Program-made: the position numbers and the translations under genes | Part shown: positions 16,504-42,760 of the stretch, in pieces | How positions within the stretch are numbered: position 1 is the first letter of the stretch | Layout of the letters: every line of letters begins with the position of its first letter | The notes under the pieces: generated by a model | Seen by the model: the letters and a program-made list of their open reading frames with translations, nothing else | What the model was told of the DNA's origin: nothing | Database searches by the model: none | NCBI GenBank assembly: GCA_003558105.1 | Contig: PWMS01000108.1 | Span: 1 to 42,760, forward strand | Source: Mollicutes bacterium | GTDB taxonomy: Bacteria > Bacillota_I > Bacilli_A > Izemoplasmatales > Izemoplasmataceae | Direction of reading: 5' to 3' | DNA: 42,760 nt

Positions 16504-17367
16504 ATGCCAAAAATAGGCGTTATCACCGACACCAATGCGTGTTTGGACTACTTTAAACATGACGACGACATCCCAATTTTACGCTCCATCATCCACCTTA
16601 ACGATGAGGCGTATTTAGACCACGTTGAACTAAAAGCCGAAGATTTCTACAAACGCTTAAAAGACGACCAATCGATATTCCCCAAAACCTCACAACCCCC
16701 CACCGTAAAAATGATAGAAACCTACGAAAAAATGAAAGAAAAAGGTTACACCGATCTTATCGTTGTGACAATTTCTTCGCATATGTCAGGGATATTTTCA
16801 GCGGCGAATGTCGCCGGTACGACTGTTGATGGCATCAATGTCCATGTATTTGATTCTAAAAGCGTTGCTTTTCCTCAAGCCAAGATGGCCTTAGAAGCCG
16901 CAGAAATGGCTAAAAAAGGCAAAAGCGTCGATGCGATTATCGAACACTTAGACTTTATCCGCAATAACAACCATCTTTATTTTGCGGTCGACACCCTTAC
17001 ATACCTTGTAAAAAACGGCCGTCTTTCTGGTGCCCAAGGCTTTTTGGGATCAATGTTAAAAATCAAGCCTTTGCTCCATATCTCAAAAGAAGGCAAAGTC
17101 GAACCAGTCGAAAAAATCCGTACCTTTAAAAAAGCGGTCGACCGCGTTATCGCGATGTATTTCGAAGAAACCCAAGATCTAAAGAACGTCGAACCTTTTA
17201 TTTGTCATGCCCATAACCCTGAGACTAAAAAATATATCGAAGCGGTCTTAAAAGAAAAAAATCCCAAACTTAAAACCATTTTTTCCATGCCGCTTACCCC
17301 AGCGGTTGGAGCCCATGGCGGCCCAGGGGCCATCGCCCTTGGATACTATATTAAAAAGTCAATTTAA
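16504..17367 (+). CDS. DegV family fatty-acid-binding protein (paralogue 1)
   Basis: DegV/FakB proteins bind a fatty acid and present it to the kinase FakA for phosphorylation and entry into phospholipid synthesis. 287 residues, normal length. Features are the KTSQPPT motif (about residue 62), ISSHMSGIFSAA (the Ser-Gly acyl-carboxylate loop), DTLTYLVKNGRLSGAQGFLGSMLKIKP, and the closing VGAHGGPGAIALGYY. The N-terminus TDTNACLDYFKHD belongs to a divergent subgroup shared by the other two paralogues here. AAAGGAAG precedes the ATG. It is sixth in the coiled-coil/Cls operon, and the HAAS-like repeat protein begins 11 bases later. Confidence 0.92.
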   Translation: MPKIGVITDTNACLDYFKHDDDIPILRSIIHLNDEAYLDHVELKAEDFYKRLKDDQSIFPKTSQPPTVKMIETYEKMKEKGYTDLIVVTISSHMSGIFSAANVAGTTVDGINVHVFDSKSVAFPQAKMALEAAEMAKKGKSVDAIIEHLDFIRNNNHLYFAVDTLTYLVKNGRLSGAQGFLGSMLKIKPLLHISKEGKVEPVEKIRTFKKAVDRVIAMYFEETQDLKNVEPFICHAHNPETKKYIEAVLKEKNPKLKTIFSMPLTPAVGAHGGPGAIALGYYIKKSI

Positions 17368-36517: not shown

Positions 36518-37375
36518 ATGAAAAAAATTGGTATTGTAGTTTGTGGTAACTCAGGCATCGATTATTTGAAACACGATTATGACATTCGGTTGATTAGATC
36601 TGCGCTGCATGTCGCAGAAGAGACTTATACGGACTTCATCGACATTAAAGCCGATGAATTTTACAAAATGATCAAAGAAAACCCCGAGTACCATCCCACC
36701 ACATCGCAAACCCCCACTGGCGTTATTTTAGAAACCTATGAACAGATGAAAAAAGATGGCTATGAAGAAATTTTAGCGATTACCCTTTCGTCTAAATTAA
36801 GTGGCACATATGAAGGTGCCTTGATGGCGGCCAATATGGTTGAAGGCATCAACGTGACCGTCTTTGATTCAAAAACCGTCGCGTATTCAGAAGCTTATAT
36901 GGCTTTAGAAGCAGCCCGTATGGTCAAAGAAGGCGCCGATATTCCTAAAATTATCGACCGTCTAAATGAGATTCGTGAGAACCAAGGCTTACTCATCAGC
37001 GTTGATACCTTAAAATATTTGGTGAAAAATGGCCGACTTTCCGGTGCGCAAGGTTTCTTAGGCTCATTGATGAAAATCAAACCAATGCTCAGTTTAAGTC
37101 GGGAAGGTAAAGTCGAACCAATCGAAAAGATTAGAACCCGCCAAAAAGCGTTAAAACGCATCGTTGAAAAGTTTACAGAAGAGATTTATGAAAAGCCCAT
37201 GGATGTCTTTATCATCCACGCCAACGCGGAAGACGTTTTAGACAATGTGAAAAAAGAACTACAAAAAGCTCTACCGGATGTGGGTAATATCAACACCTAT
37301 CTTTTGACCCCTGTGGTTGGAGCGCATGCTGGTCATGGCGCGCTTGCGATTGGTTGGATTAAGAAAAAACAGTGA
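36518..37375 (+). CDS. DegV family fatty-acid-binding protein (paralogue 2)
   Basis: 285 residues with the acyl-binding features of the family: TTSQTPTGV (about 61), LSSKLSGTYEGA, DTLKYLVKNGRLSGAQGFLGSLMKIKP, VGAHAGHGALAIGW. The N-terminus reads VVCGNSGIDYLKHD, replacing the family TDS with CGN. It is more similar to paralogue 1 than to paralogue 3 by eye. A TGGAGG site precedes the ATG. Upstream is TTGACA (36446), TATAAT (36481) being too far away for a standard promoter and GATAAT (36467) a closer candidate. A MarR gene follows 55 bases later with its own TATAAT. Confidence 0.92.
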   Translation: MKKIGIVVCGNSGIDYLKHDYDIRLIRSALHVAEETYTDFIDIKADEFYKMIKENPEYHPTTSQTPTGVILETYEQMKKDGYEEILAITLSSKLSGTYEGALMAANMVEGINVTVFDSKTVAYSEAYMALEAARMVKEGADIPKIIDRLNEIRENQGLLISVDTLKYLVKNGRLSGAQGFLGSLMKIKPMLSLSREGKVEPIEKIRTRQKALKRIVEKFTEEIYEKPMDVFIIHANAEDVLDNVKKELQKALPDVGNINTYLLTPVVGAHAGHGALAIGWIKKKQ

Positions 37376-38637: not shown

Positions 38638-39510
38638 ATGAAAAAAACCGCCGTGGTTGCTGTAAGCACAGGATGCTTGGATTATCTGGATGTACCCCAT
38701 GATAATCTTTTCATCATTCGCTGTAAGATTTTAATGCAAGACAAAACCTACAACGATTTTGTCGATTTAAAAGCCTCAACATTTTATGAAACCATCAAAA
38801 ACGATCCTAGCGTTGTGCCTTCAAGTTCGATGCCTGCTTTAGGTGAGATCACCGAGACTTTAAAAACGATTGAAAAGGCGGGTTATGAAAACGCCTTATT
38901 CATCACCATCTCAAAAGAACTCTCTGGGACCTATCAAACATGTATCATGGCTAAAAACGCTTATGAAGGCAATCTCAACATCGAGATACTAGACTCTAAA
39001 AATGCCGCTATCAGCGAAGGGTTTCTCTCTCTTGAGGCTTTGCGTATGATCGCTGAAGACAAGCCTTTAGAAGAGATTATTACGTATCTAGATAAACTTA
39101 AAACCGCACGCAAACAATACTTTATGGTTGATAATTTACGTTTGCTTGTGAAAAATGGTCGTTTGAGTGGCGCCAAAGGCTTGATGGGCAGACTACTTAA
39201 AATGAAACCAATCTTAGAAGTCAACGACGACGGCAAAATCGTCCCCTTCGAAAAAATCAGAACCCAACGTAAAGCTTTAGAACGCATGGTTGATATTGTC
39301 TTAGAAGATCTAAAGCATCTAGATAATTTCGTGATTACCTACGATACTTCAGACAATAAAGAAGGCTTTGAATATGTCAAACAACGCATCGATGAAGCTT
39401 ACCCCAAAAATGTGCATTACGCCGCGCCCATTACACCGGTCATCGGCGCACATACGGGACATGGCACCGTCGGGATTGCCTATTTCGATATCGATAAAGC
39501 CAAAAAGTAA
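38638..39510 (+). CDS. DegV family fatty-acid-binding protein (paralogue 3, divergent)
   Basis: 290 residues. Acyl-binding motifs are PSSSMPALGEI (Ser in place of Thr in the TS motif), ISKELSGTYQTC, DNLRLLVKNGRLSGAKGLMGRLLKMKP and IGAHTGHGTVGIAYF. The N-terminus VVAVSTGCLDYLDVPHD lacks the usual TDS. It is the most divergent of the three copies, which may mean a different fatty acid or partner. It lies 3 bases after the HAAS gene, with AAAGGAG, so it belongs to the PadR unit. Confidence 0.9.
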   Translation: MKKTAVVAVSTGCLDYLDVPHDNLFIIRCKILMQDKTYNDFVDLKASTFYETIKNDPSVVPSSSMPALGEITETLKTIEKAGYENALFITISKELSGTYQTCIMAKNAYEGNLNIEILDSKNAAISEGFLSLEALRMIAEDKPLEEIITYLDKLKTARKQYFMVDNLRLLVKNGRLSGAKGLMGRLLKMKPILEVNDDGKIVPFEKIRTQRKALERMVDIVLEDLKHLDNFVITYDTSDNKEGFEYVKQRIDEAYPKNVHYAAPITPVIGAHTGHGTVGIAYFDIDKAKK

Positions 39511-39513
39511 CCA

Positions 39514-39542
39514 TTGTCAAAAATACCGCATAGTGGTACAAT
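39514..39542 (+). promoter_or_regulatory. promoter of the Gx-family membrane protein gene
   Basis: TTGTCA, 17-base spacer, TACAAT, just after the DegV stop and 17 bases before ATG 39560. Confidence 0.65.
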
Positions 39543-39559
39543 AACATTCGGTGATTTAG

Positions 39560-40075
39560 ATGCAAACAAAAAAACTCGTCTTATTCAGTATTTTACTCTC
39601 CGTCAGCATCGTCTTAAACATCGTAGAACGGTTTGCGGTTGCTGGTTTTAGTGGTGTGCCCTTTTTTAGACTCGGGCTTGCTAATATCGTCATCCTGATT
39701 ATCTTATATGTCTACGGTAGTAAAGATGCTTTTACCATGCTTATATTAAGAATATTTGTAGTCGGTCTTTTGACGGGCAACCTTGGTGCGCCCACCTTTT
39801 GGCTATCCTTATCTGGTGGCCTTATCGCTTTTTTACTGATGATGCTTTTCAAACAACTACCCGGCTTTACCATCATTAGCGTCTCTCTTATGGGCGCGAT
39901 TGGCCATGCTTTTGGTCAAATATTAATGGCGATTATCATCTTGAGTACCGTCGAAAACATCTATTTATTTCCCTTGCTGATGGTCCTCAGTGTGCCCACC
40001 GGCATATTCACCGGCATGGTCGCAAAAAAACTGATGCGCATCTTAAGCCAACAACTATTCTTAGAACAATATTAA
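39560..40075 (+). CDS. Gx transporter-family membrane protein (EetB-like)
   Basis: 171 residues, five to six helices (about 7-25, 37-53, 58-75, 80-97, 102-128 and 133-155), with the VERF...FRLGLANIVILIILYVYG core and GNLGAPTFWLSLSGGLIAFLLM of the Gx family. Members were earlier called heptaprenyl diphosphate synthase component I, and one (EetB) belongs to the Listeria flavin-based extracellular electron transfer locus. The ApbE and FMN-lipoprotein genes just beyond support that context. The ribosome site is weak (GGTGATTTAG). Confidence 0.8.
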   Translation: MQTKKLVLFSILLSVSIVLNIVERFAVAGFSGVPFFRLGLANIVILIILYVYGSKDAFTMLILRIFVVGLLTGNLGAPTFWLSLSGGLIAFLLMMLFKQLPGFTIISVSLMGAIGHAFGQILMAIIILSTVENIYLFPLLMVLSVPTGIFTGMVAKKLMRILSQQLFLEQY

Positions 40076-40108
40076 AAAACGAAATCCCTTGGGATTTCGT
40101 TTTATTTT
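40075..40108. terminator. bidirectional terminator
   Basis: AAAACGAAATCCC/GGGATTTCGTTTT between the convergent Gx gene (+) and apbE (-), with A and T tracts on both sides. Confidence 0.85.
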
Positions 40109-41376
40109 TACCTTTTTTTACGACCATATAAGAAGTAGTATAAGCCAGTAGAAGAGGCAAACAATGTCAAGATGGCCAAAAGCACAACCGTCATAAATAC
40201 GTCACGACCCTCATCACAATCAAAGTCTAAAGTGAAGTGTCTTAAGTATTGTGCTTCGAAAGCCTCACTCATCACCGGCGCTACACAACTATCCTCAAAC
40301 CATATCGCCTCTAAATCATCGCGCGCATTAACATAATCAAGCCCTTCTTCCAAAGGCATAATGAAGACGGCGGTAACCAAGATATCGCCAAAAGCGCCAT
40401 CCTCAGATACCATTGTGACCGCTTTATGGTGATCGGTCGGATAAAGCGTATAAGGATTGATCAAATGGTGATACTTGCGTCCATCGACTTCATAGTAGCG
40501 ATCATAATCACCACTTGTGGTTGCGTTTTTCCCACTTTCCATCTTGATCGTGGCATAGGTGTTTTCTAGGCCAAAAGGATTTTCTGGGTTGGTTATACCA
40601 ATATAGAAGAGATCATTATCGCGATAAGGATGATCGCCATACACCTCAACATTGGAGGTGCCAGCGTTGAGGATAAAGGCTTCAATGCGCTCATCATCCT
40701 TTAATACCTCGCCCAACATCTTTGCGCCATAGCCTTTGGCCATACCGCCAAGATCAAGACGCATCCCCGCTTCGATCATCACTTGATAATTGTCTTTATC
40801 TAAATGAAGCCCTTCAATCCCAACATACGCGTTGGCTGCATCTAAGGTACTTTGTTCGGGGATGGTGCAGTATTGATCTTTTTCTTGTTCGTATATTTCA
40901 TGGGAATTTTCTTCACCCCGCAAAGACTCTTGCCAACCAAGACAACGTTCCCGATGTTCATCCCATACATCGATAACAGGCCCTAAAGTAATATCAAAAT
41001 ACCCGTCTGTAATATCGTAGTATTCAATCGATAGTTCAAGCATATCAAAAAGCAAGGGGTCTACCGTATGGTATTCACCTGGATTATCGTTGATGGTCTT
41101 AACATTAACAAGGCCTTCATAGGCCACAAACCATGTCGATAAACGGTGCGTTTTTTCCAGTATTTCATGAAGTTCATTCGTTAAATCTTCAAGGTCTTCG
41201 CCTTCTTCATGAAACATCCGCATCGCAATCGTCGTATCGTAATAGTTGCTCGTGGTAAAATCTGTGTAAGCGACACTTGATTCGGCATCATCATCAGAAA
41301 AGAAGTATAGAGTGCCAAGGCCAACAATCACAAGCAAACCTAAAATAGCTATTGTGTATTTATTCACATATTTCAT
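40108..41376 (-). CDS. apbE: ApbE-type FAD:protein FMN transferase with membrane anchors at both ends
   Basis: Transfers FMN from FAD onto a Thr/Ser of target proteins outside the membrane. 422 residues from ATG 41376: the track ATG (41394) overlaps a TATAAT box, whereas AGGTGAT lies just before 41376. An N-terminal anchor helix spans about 8-25. The catalytic domain has MRLDLGGMAKGYGAK (206-219), NATTSGDYDRYY (284-295), HHLINPYTLYP (303-313) and the Mg2+ loop GDILVTAVFIM (330-340). Unusually, a second helix (about 393-415) and a basic YGRKKR tail end the protein. It has five cysteines outside the membrane. The likely substrate is the lipoprotein encoded just upstream on the same strand. Confidence 0.9.
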   Translation of the reverse strand: MKYVNKYTIAILGLLVIVGLGTLYFFSDDDAESSVAYTDFTTSNYYDTTIAMRMFHEEGEDLEDLTNELHEILEKTHRLSTWFVAYEGLVNVKTINDNPGEYHTVDPLLFDMLELSIEYYDITDGYFDITLGPVIDVWDEHRERCLGWQESLRGEENSHEIYEQEKDQYCTIPEQSTLDAANAYVGIEGLHLDKDNYQVMIEAGMRLDLGGMAKGYGAKMLGEVLKDDERIEAFILNAGTSNVEVYGDHPYRDNDLFYIGITNPENPFGLENTYATIKMESGKNATTSGDYDRYYEVDGRKYHHLINPYTLYPTDHHKAVTMVSEDGAFGDILVTAVFIMPLEEGLDYVNARDDLEAIWFEDSCVAPVMSEAFEAQYLRHFTLDFDCDEGRDVFMTVVLLAILTLFASSTGLYYFLYGRKKR

Positions 41377-41392
41377 TTTAATCACCTGAATC

Positions 41393-41398
41393 ATTATA
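41393..41398 (-). promoter_or_regulatory. -10 box of apbE
   Basis: TATAAT on the minus strand, 17 bases before ATG 41376, giving a leader of about ten bases. It decides against the ORF-track start at 41394. Confidence 0.5.
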
Positions 41399-41420
41399 AC
41401 ATAAGATATTAAAAATCAAA

Positions 41421-41450
41421 GAAAAAAAGAGACGTCCGAAGACGTCTCTT
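41421..41450 (-). terminator. terminator of the FMN-binding lipoprotein gene
   Basis: AAGAGACGTC/GACGTCTCTT with a 4-base loop; the minus-strand T-run corresponds to plus-strand A at 41422-41428. It separates the lipoprotein gene from apbE. Confidence 0.9.
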
Positions 41451-41466
41451 ACAAATGTCTAATCAC

Positions 41467-42474
41467 TTAGTCCAATGCGTTTTGAACTGCTTCAATGTAG
41501 CTAGTAACGGTAACTGTTACACCAGCGATTACATCGTCGCCTTCAAAGTCGCCATCTTCGTTAATGTCATAGCTAGGAACGCCTTGATTTTCAACGATAT
41601 CATCGGCAAGCATTTGTACTTGGGCAACCCACATGATTTCGCCTTCAACTTCACAATCTTCTACAGGTTCACCTGGCCACATATTATAGCCGCAACCATG
41701 GTCTAAAGACATCTTAGTTGTTGCAATACCAGATCTTTCATTACCAAAATGTACCCAATCAACAAGGGCTTCATCAGAAGCTTTCATGTAGATCGTGTCG
41801 ATTCCAATATGCTCAATGTGACCATCGGCATTAACCGCCACCACAGCAATGGTGTTTTGATGACCATCGGTATAACCAAAGTTAATACCAGGTTCATAAT
41901 CGCCTGTACCACTAAATGATGGAACATCGAAGTCTGCAGGACTTTCGTCTTCACCGAGTTTTGCAATCTCAAGTGCATTTTCAACCGCTTCAATGTAGCT
42001 AGTAACGGTAATGGTAACACCAGCGATTACATCGTCGCCTTCAAAGTCGCCATCTTCGTTAATGTCATAAGAAGGGACGCCTTGATTTTCAATGATGTCT
42101 TCAGCGAGCATGCGAACTTGGTCAACCCACATAATTTCGCCTTCAACTTCACAATCTTCTACAGGTTGTCCAGGCCACATATTATAGCCGCAACCATGGT
42201 CTAAAGACATCTTAGTTGTTACATAACCCGTATTCTCGCTACCACGAGCTTCCCAGTTTAATGGGCCATCATCATCGGTTTTAAGATAAACAGAATCGAT
42301 GAAGATATCATCAATATAGCCATCTGCATCCACGTAAACATACGCATACGTATTTTGATGACCGTCTGTATAACCAAGATGTAATCCTGGTTTGTACTCA
42401 CCATAGTCTTTACCACATGCTGCAAGGGTGACCATGACGATTAAAGAAAGGGACACAAATAAAACTTTTTTCAT
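41467..42474 (-). CDS. tandem FMN-binding-domain lipoprotein (PplA-like)
   Basis: 335 residues. Signal peptide with lipobox LAAC (lipidated Cys20). Two FMN-binding domains follow, about 26-168 and 192-334. Each ends in DVIAGVT(I/V)TVTSYIEAV, with the expected flavinylated Thr at 154 and 320. The motif is a variant of the usual S/T-G-A-T, with Ala-Gly-Val-Thr. Each domain also has an EF-hand-like loop DINEDGDFEGDD (137-148, 303-314) and a Cys pair (95/108, 261/274). Residues 86-168 and 252-334 match at 76 of 83 positions. This kind of protein accepts electrons outside the membrane, as PplA does in Listeria. A consensus promoter and its own terminator suggest high, separate expression. Confidence 0.9.
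   Translation of the reverse strand: MKKVLFVSLSLIVMVTLAACGKDYGEYKPGLHLGYTDGHQNTYAYVYVDADGYIDDIFIDSVYLKTDDDGPLNWEARGSENTGYVTTKMSLDHGCGYNMWPGQPVEDCEVEGEIMWVDQVRMLAEDIIENQGVPSYDINEDGDFEGDDVIAGVTITVTSYIEAVENALEIAKLGEDESPADFDVPSFSGTGDYEPGINFGYTDGHQNTIAVVAVNADGHIEHIGIDTIYMKASDEALVDWVHFGNERSGIATTKMSLDHGCGYNMWPGEPVEDCEVEGEIMWVAQVQMLADDIVENQGVPSYDINEDGDFEGDDVIAGVTVTVTSYIEAVQNALD
41473..41901 (-). repeat. internal duplication, copy 2 (FMN domain 2)
   Basis: Encodes residues 192-334, matching 41971-42399 with a constant offset of 166 codons and no gaps. The half toward the C-terminus is nearly identical at the DNA level. Confidence 0.85.
41971..42399 (-). repeat. internal duplication, copy 1 (FMN domain 1)
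   Basis: Encodes residues 26-168. Scattered synonymous differences from copy 2 (for example around the PSYD codons) show real divergence rather than an assembly artefact. Confidence 0.85.
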
Positions 42475-42530
42475 TTGAAACGCCTCCTAAATGTTTTCTT
42501 TTTTTATATATTAAGTCTTTCACAACCTGT

Positions 42531-42559
42531 ATTATAGATTCTCTTAAACGCTTTGTCAA
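42531..42559 (-). promoter_or_regulatory. consensus promoter of the FMN lipoprotein gene
   Basis: On the minus strand: TTGACA, 17-base spacer, TATAAT, all consensus; the start codon is 57 bases further and has an AGGAGGCG site. It is the strongest-looking promoter in the window. Confidence 0.85.
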
Positions 42560-42648
42560 TGCTATGTGTGATATAATTTTGTATGACAAACCGTTTTATA
42601 ATTAACCTTCTAAACATCATTAAAGGTAACATTTAAAAGCAGTTATGT

Positions 42649-42654
42649 TATAAT
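42649..42654 (+). promoter_or_regulatory. -10 box of the right-edge gene
   Basis: TATAAT 21 bases before ATG 42675, with GAGGCGATG in between. The divergent region 42475-42674 otherwise holds only the opposing promoter and A/T-rich sequence. Confidence 0.45.
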
Positions 42655-42674
42655 AATTTTGCGAGGCGATGTAA

Positions 42675-42760
42675 ATGAAAAAAAATGATCTTATTTTAAT
42701 AGTTACGGTCTTATTGATAGGCTTAAGTTCATTATTGACAGTCCAAATTATTCAAGCGCA
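42675..42760 (+). CDS. start of a probable NusG-domain-II (EetA-like) membrane-anchored protein, truncated by window end
   Basis: Only 28 residues are visible, MKKNDLILIVTVLLIGLSSL and onward. A short basic start followed directly by one hydrophobic helix is the usual N-terminus of NusG-domain-II proteins, which accompany Gx-family and FMN-binding genes. The diagnostic domain lies outside the window, so this is a context-based guess; any small anchored protein could begin this way. The start is supported by GAGGCGATG. Confidence 0.4.
   Translation, partial: MKKNDLILIVTVLLIGLSSLLTVQIIQA

Follow-up and report, generated by a model that had tools for sequence, protein, structure and literature searches.

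The right end of a 42,760-nucleotide contig (C114), the whole of which is here called the window, encodes a Gx-family membrane protein, an ApbE flavin transferase, a two-domain FMN_bind lipoprotein and the first codons of a NusG_II protein. The contig belongs to a draft genome (1.56 Mb in 123 contigs, 82.8% complete) of an uncultured member of the Mollicutes that is a relative of Candidatus Izimaplasma. This locus probably represents the cell's single cassette for flavin adenine dinucleotide (FAD) export and protein flavinylation, together with a dedicated surface lipoprotein that would carry two flavins and be reduced by Rnf/Nqr complexes. The cassette is most likely fed by sodium-pumping Rnf/Nqr and not by a chain of the Listeria type. 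This reading follows from the variation of the donor-encoding part at the same locus in relatives, which holds a HydA-Rnf operon, an RnfC/RnfD pair, or neither. Its support from sequences and genomes comprises the gene families, the single ApbE, an Rnf operon, an Nqr-type operon lacking NqrA, an energy-coupling factor (ECF) T/A module, and the Rnf-type genes found at the locus in relatives.

The features of the cassette are as follows; promoter- and terminator-like sites are consensus matches, and the number of sigma-70-like sites is not above that in shuffled sequences.

39514..39542, + strand: sigma-70-like promoter sequence before the Gx gene, TTGTCA-17-TACAAT (10/12 match, consensus only)
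39560..40075, + strand: Gx/EetB-like protein, 171 amino acids, predicted FAD-exporting ECF S-component (PF07456, 116 bits; AlphaFold2 pLDDT 80.7; Foldseek)
40076..40103, no strand assigned: bidirectional terminator-like hairpin where Gx and apbE converge (consensus scan)
40108..41394, - strand: ApbE, putative FAD:protein FMN transferase, 428 amino acids (PF02424, 190 bits; solved relatives 1vrm and 7esa)
41427..41450, - strand: terminator-like hairpin between the lipoprotein gene and apbE (consensus scan)
41467..42474, - strand: two-domain FMN_bind lipoprotein, 335 amino acids, acidic (PF04205, 33 bits; AlphaFold2 pLDDT 89.4; nearest solved fold 2kzx)
42013..42033, - strand: flavinylation-like motif 1, DVIAGVT, residues 148-154 (sequence)
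41515..41535, - strand: flavinylation-like motif 2, DVIAGVT, residues 314-320 (sequence)
42531..42559, - strand: promoter-like site before the lipoprotein gene, TTGACA-17-TATAAT (12/12 sigma-70-like match, consensus only)
42626..42654, + strand: promoter-like site before the NusG_II gene, GTAACA-17-TATAAT (10/12 match, consensus only)
42675..42760, + strand: NusG_II (EetA-like) membrane-anchored protein, first 28 codons, truncated where the contig stops (assigned from synteny and from N-terminal resemblance to complete copies of relatives)

An earlier note on this DNA had recognized a Gx-family protein, ApbE and a lipoprotein with two flavin mononucleotide (FMN)-binding domains, and had suggested a profile search as a check; Pfam matches to PF07456, PF02424 and PF04205 bear these identities out. 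The split, partly divergent and separately promoted layout that it described is likewise borne out, at the level of consensus matches, by the terminator-like and promoter-like sites. The right end of the window is the end of the contig, and sequence further to the right was taken from syntenic relatives instead. The open frame starting at 42675 (+ strand) encodes MKKNDLILIVTVLLIGLSSLLTVQIIQA before the contig ends. In relatives, the gene at this position encodes NusG_II (PF07009; E values of 7e-13 to 2e-16 for the copies tested) and is followed by DUF1146; the earlier guess of NusG-II for the cut gene, of which the window holds 28 residues, thus agrees with synteny. The NusG_II copies of relatives have a common C-terminal ICQ...CLPN pattern. 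Conserved synteny in many genera shows that the gene content of the cassette is more than coincidence.

Listeria EetB binds FAD and is an ECF S-subunit essential for FAD export (PMC9973259). An ECF-S/RibU fold is predicted for the window Gx protein: in a Foldseek search with its AlphaFold2 model, 8 of the 9 best matches were ECF S-components, and the comparison with TmRibU gave TM values of 0.71/0.73 (probability 1.00, E 0.04). Probabilities against S-components were 0.99-1.00, but E-values were modest (only 0.008-0.13). By analogy with characterized homologues, the protein probably exports FAD. An ECF-T match is present in each of six congeners (the window genome and five others), and an ECF-A gene adjoins the ECF-T gene in the window genome. 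Since EetB is a FAD-exporting ECF-S protein and the window Gx protein has a predicted fold of the same kind, Gx and ApbE are to be regarded as flavin supply and not as an electron path.

The window ApbE has the family domain, resembles the solved enzymes 1vrm and 7esa, and has apparent N- and C-terminal membrane segments; as its characterized homologues do, it would transfer FMN. Of 41 family genomes, 31 yielded an ApbE gene, always as a single copy, and the window copy is the only one detected in its own genome. This genome also contains an Rnf operon (contig C53) and an Nqr-type operon (contig C59), and their RnfG and NqrC proteins carry the TGAT motif. Because ApbE is single-copy, the window enzyme should also mature the Rnf and Nqr complexes. 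RnfG (L033:2750-3955, contig C53; 401 amino acids) has, beside its TGAT motif, a second site, DVTVGAT, and apparently two FMN domains.

The Nqr-type operon consists of B, C, D, E and F genes, with no A gene alongside in the approximately thirteen loci read, and NQRA_SLBB, the one domain model by which NqrA was sought, was above the cut-off in none of the 41 family genomes. The operon is therefore not that of a standard six-subunit Na+-NQR. The same B-C-D-E-F arrangement without NqrA is kept in the family (L032:2444-6287 on contig C59 of the window genome, L094-L103, L110 and L111). NqrB of this operon scores closer to RnfD than to NqrB, and NqrF lies just under the NqrF cut-off.

The lipoprotein has an N-terminus of the form MKK...LAAC followed by two repeated FMN_bind domains, and its AlphaFold2 model is confident and shows two domains. 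Sequence comparison with the PDB yielded a single relative, 2kzx from C. thermocellum, which also led the fold comparison, with a weak match. Acidic residues greatly outnumber basic ones (67 Asp and Glu versus 12 Lys and Arg in 335 residues), which is as expected for a salt habitat. A PF04205 search of the window genome returned RnfG and NqrC and missed this lipoprotein, though it passes the cut-off; genome-wide counts of FMN_bind proteins are therefore minima. Relatives of the lipoprotein have from one to several FMN domains, with two or more in most genomes of the group; in L035 and L038, the domains lie in tandem genes or longer repeats. Two FMN_bind lipoproteins (L048:9793-10665 and L050:743-2515) have an N-terminal region that by eye resembles rhodanese (LxLCGSGTRAGYV), doubled in L050.

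The locus in relatives has a conserved order, DegV - Gx - ApbE - variable part - lipoprotein - NusG_II - DUF1146 - YigZ - PolyA polymerase, and three types can be told apart by the variable part. In type A (for example G010, G013, G015, G021, G027 and G033), it is an operon in which a HydA-like gene is joined to RnfCDGEA; the products are the HydA-like protein, RnfC and RnfD, an RnfG of large size, a pair of Rnf-Nqr membrane proteins and a short iron-sulfur (FeS) protein. In type B (G008, G012, G014, G018, G023 and G032), it consists of an RnfC-like and an RnfD-like gene only. Type C (the window, its congeners, G006, G017, G020, G028, G030 and G034) has neither the HydA-Rnf operon nor the RnfC/RnfD pair. 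The members of types A and B are backed by Pfam, and some type assignments are limited by contig edges and missing genes. RnfC of types A and B keeps two Cys clusters and lacks the GLGGSGFP motif of canonical RnfC. In a tree of the neighboring genes, which is unrooted and in which left-hand genes are partly missing, the HydA-Rnf genomes of type A are the one cleanly monophyletic clade; types B and C are mixed, with G017 and G030 (type C) placed among genomes of type B, consistent with the RnfC/RnfD pair having been lost or gained more than once.

The HydA-like [FeFe]-hydrogenase subunit (PF02906) is encoded first in the Rnf-like operon (L067:10207-11907, L063:425-2191, L048:2105-3805 and other type A loci). 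The first Cys of its TSCCP motif is replaced by Ser, Thr, Trp or His in five of six aligned copies, and the second and later Cys are kept; given this change, the Rnf complex may contain a hydrogenase that is slow or has no catalytic activity.

The EET (extracellular electron transfer) locus of Listeria monocytogenes also has the genes for Ndh2, DmkA, DmkB and FmnA. If the window locus worked in the same way, an Ndh2-like enzyme would pass electrons via demethylmenaquinone to the di-FMN lipoprotein and on to extracellular iron, and the genes not found would be in the 17% of the genome that is missing from the assembly. EetA-, EetB-, ApbE- and PplA-like genes do sit side by side here, the genome is incomplete to that degree, and a UbiA/MenA-like prenyltransferase is present in three congeners. 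UbiA/DmkA was not found in the window draft genome itself. The PF07992 matches in the six congeners, judged by length, score, context and a few sequences read, are soluble dehydrogenase, oxidase, reductase and GltD types, with no Ndh2-like candidate among them in any of the six; the gap is therefore not confined to the window genome. UbiA is missing in 6 of 15 lipoprotein genomes tested versus 2.2 expected from incompleteness (P ~0.013), and UbiA and lipoprotein are unassociated among genomes without the HydA-like operon (P 0.69, a weak test because UbiA-negative genomes are few and related). A complete Listeria-type chain is thus improbable.

A membrane NADH dehydrogenase (Ndh2, K03885 with a transmembrane helix) in the cluster serves as the operational marker of EET clusters (PMC8238504), and the window and its syntenic relatives contain none, in line with the earlier remark that no Ndh2 gene is visible locally; the locus falls outside that definition. 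Rnf-linked flavinylation clusters are defined by RnfB encoded in the cluster (PMC8238504); RnfB is not in the window, and a short FeS-domain protein occupies its place in type A relatives. NQR/RNF-like clusters are defined by a PF03116-PF00175 fusion (PMC8238504), which is absent, the PF03116 matches of the window genome belonging to the separate Rnf and Nqr-type operons. Two other candidates were rejected. A partnership between UbiA and the lipoprotein fails because their association vanishes when the HydA-Rnf clade is set aside, and a fumarate-reductase-like partner fails because the single strong PF00890 protein of the genome has no signal peptide and is apparently cytosolic. Rnf and the Nqr-type complex without NqrA may thus be the best remaining electron donors, consistent with the Rnf-type genes in types A and B.

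The proposal of the earlier note that this is a flavin-based EET module therefore stands in part: its gene families, NusG_II and FMN domains are confirmed. The EET function itself is weakened by the role of Gx and ApbE in flavin supply, the absence of Ndh2, the Rnf-type genes of relatives, and the Listeria ΔeetA mutant, which has no EET phenotype (PMC9973259). A right-hand gene other than NusG-II, with lipoprotein relatives confined to Rnf/Nqr or fumarate-reductase-like systems, had been regarded as fatal to that proposal; the gene is NusG_II by synteny, and the relatives do not occur solely with such genes.

Some findings also count against the Rnf/Nqr-fed cassette proposed here. The motif of ApbE substrates is D-x-x-[S/T]-G-A-[S/T] (PMC12052999), and both DVIAGVT copies of the lipoprotein depart from it at two positions. 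In the alignment of soda-lake sequences, AGVT occurs 13 times, SGVT 6, AGVS 4, TGVT once and AGLS once, and GA never; the canonical Ala is replaced by Val, or once by Leu, in all family motifs detected. In another system, Ala-to-Val substitution cut flavinylation to about 50%, loss of Thr abolished it and loss of Asp mattered little (PMC12052999). In three genomes of one genus (G009, G024 and G036), a single-domain lipoprotein is present, ApbE and NusG_II are undetected and Gx is not above the cut-off; one assembly gap in each genome could explain the missing genes, but from the completeness values the joint chance that incompleteness alone accounts for them is ~0.0008. In G001 (93% complete), a congener of the window genome, lipoprotein, Gx, ApbE and NusG_II were not found. 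The window locus encodes no electron donor, the Rnf and Nqr-type operons lying on other contigs, and neither an extracytosolic terminal reductase nor an outside acceptor was recognized among the families searched. The single-domain lipoprotein genes of G009, G024 and G036 (L045, L046 and L044) adjoin groES/groEL-like genes.

The altered motif, and the lipoproteins of G009, G024 and G036 without a detected ApbE, would also suit a descendant of FMN_bind proteins that holds no covalent FMN and has a structural or ligand-binding role. The residues that flavinylation needs argue the other way: Gly and the Thr/Ser acceptor are conserved in the lipoprotein motifs and Asp is nearly so, and the Val substitution was tolerated in part elsewhere. 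Loss of covalent FMN is accordingly very improbable, and flavinylation at both motifs of the window lipoprotein is expected.

Alternatively, Gx and ApbE may serve housekeeping flavinylation of Rnf and Nqr, with the lipoprotein as an Rnf/Nqr accessory or redox sensor and electrons staying at the membrane without EET. The single ApbE alongside Rnf and Nqr is consistent with this, as are the lack of a recognized terminal reductase or multiheme candidate among the families searched and the frequent linkage of eetB to Rnf in Clostridia, where the two are co-localized in 572 genomes (PMC9973259). So is the narrower distribution of the lipoprotein, with a strong match in 14 of 41 family genomes versus 31 for ApbE, some of the 41 lying outside the lipoprotein search. 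The two or more FMN domains of the lipoprotein in most genomes of the group fit an electron relay better than maturation, and we hold the housekeeping role to be rather unlikely as a full account of the locus.

In the cassette reading that we prefer, FAD would be bound by the Gx protein within the membrane and exported with the help of the housekeeping ECF module, and ApbE would transfer FMN from the exported FAD to RnfG and NqrC (TGAT) and to the lipoprotein (two AGVT motifs), as their homologues suggest. An Rnf/Nqr-type complex could then reduce the lipoprotein on the outer side of the membrane, and the reduced lipoprotein could, in a lineage without a cell wall, hand the electrons on to an acceptor outside; NusG_II may have a role in the cassette as well. 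Electron delivery outside the cell is plausible.

Compared with known systems, the window is closest in gene content to the Listeria locus: genes like those for EetB, EetA, ApbE/FmnB and the two-domain lipoprotein PplA are adjacent, with EetB recognized directly (PF07456) and EetA by synteny alone. Unlike that locus, it lacks Ndh2, DmkA, DmkB and FmnA, is split into convergent and divergent units, has AGVT instead of [S/T]GAT, and lies in a genome with Rnf and an Nqr-type operon. The eetB/apbE-Rnf loci of Clostridia (PMC9973259) similarly combine a FAD exporter with an ApbE serving Rnf-type flavoproteins, and window relatives have Rnf genes at the locus, whereas in the window the lipoprotein with its several FMN domains is retained and the locus contains no Rnf gene. 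Multi-flavinylated proteins (PMC8238504) also have several FMN_bind domains per exported protein in numbers that vary among relatives; the window lineage differs in being wall-less and haloalkaliphilic, in its lineage-wide xGV[TS] motif, and in a Cys-containing insertion in many members. The relatives with the RnfC/RnfD pair look as if they had a trimmed Rnf whose FMN protein is external, like the two-subunit NQR/RNF-like systems (PMC8238504, PMC10979944), but their donor is an RnfC-like Fe-S protein and not an NqrB-NqrF fusion, and the pair is missing from the window genome.

When named genomes were scanned with the alignment of the lipoprotein, 15 loci were found, titled as Mollicutes or Candidatus Izimaplasma metagenome-assembled genomes except for two named only 'Bacterium isolate'. 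Most carry the sample codes CSSed, T1Sed, T3Sed or B1Sed, codes used for sediment datasets from hypersaline soda lakes (PMC6146748); soda-lake sediment is thus the origin of most named relatives. Mollicutes from these sediments were described as Izimaplasma-like fermenters (PMC6146748), and a cultured relative, Xianfuyuplasma coldseepsis, is without a distinct cell wall (PMC8397711). The window also encodes three DegV-family fatty-acid-binding proteins within 43 kb (36518-37375, 38638-39510 and 16504-17367), and two of these genes flank conserved MarR/PadR genes left of the cassette.

These results place a flavin-EET-like locus in a wall-less, Rnf/Nqr-based and apparently quinone-poor lineage, away from Ndh2 and quinone. 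Since EetB and ApbE supply flavin, the presence of EetAB, ApbE and PplA-like genes does not by itself justify annotation as EET. More tentatively, and with considerable doubt, the conserved locus might be a modular electron outlet: the FAD exporter, ApbE, lipoprotein and NusG_II would be constant, and the donor part would be exchanged from lineage to lineage, with Rnf or an Nqr lacking NqrA, encoded elsewhere, acting as donor where the locus has none. The multi-flavin lipoprotein would then be a plug-in terminal carrier through which Rnf/Nqr pumps discharge electrons outside without quinone. The occurrence of a HydA-like-Rnf operon, an RnfC/RnfD pair or neither at one locus provides a natural series for asking which donor an extracytosolic FMN lipoprotein needs.

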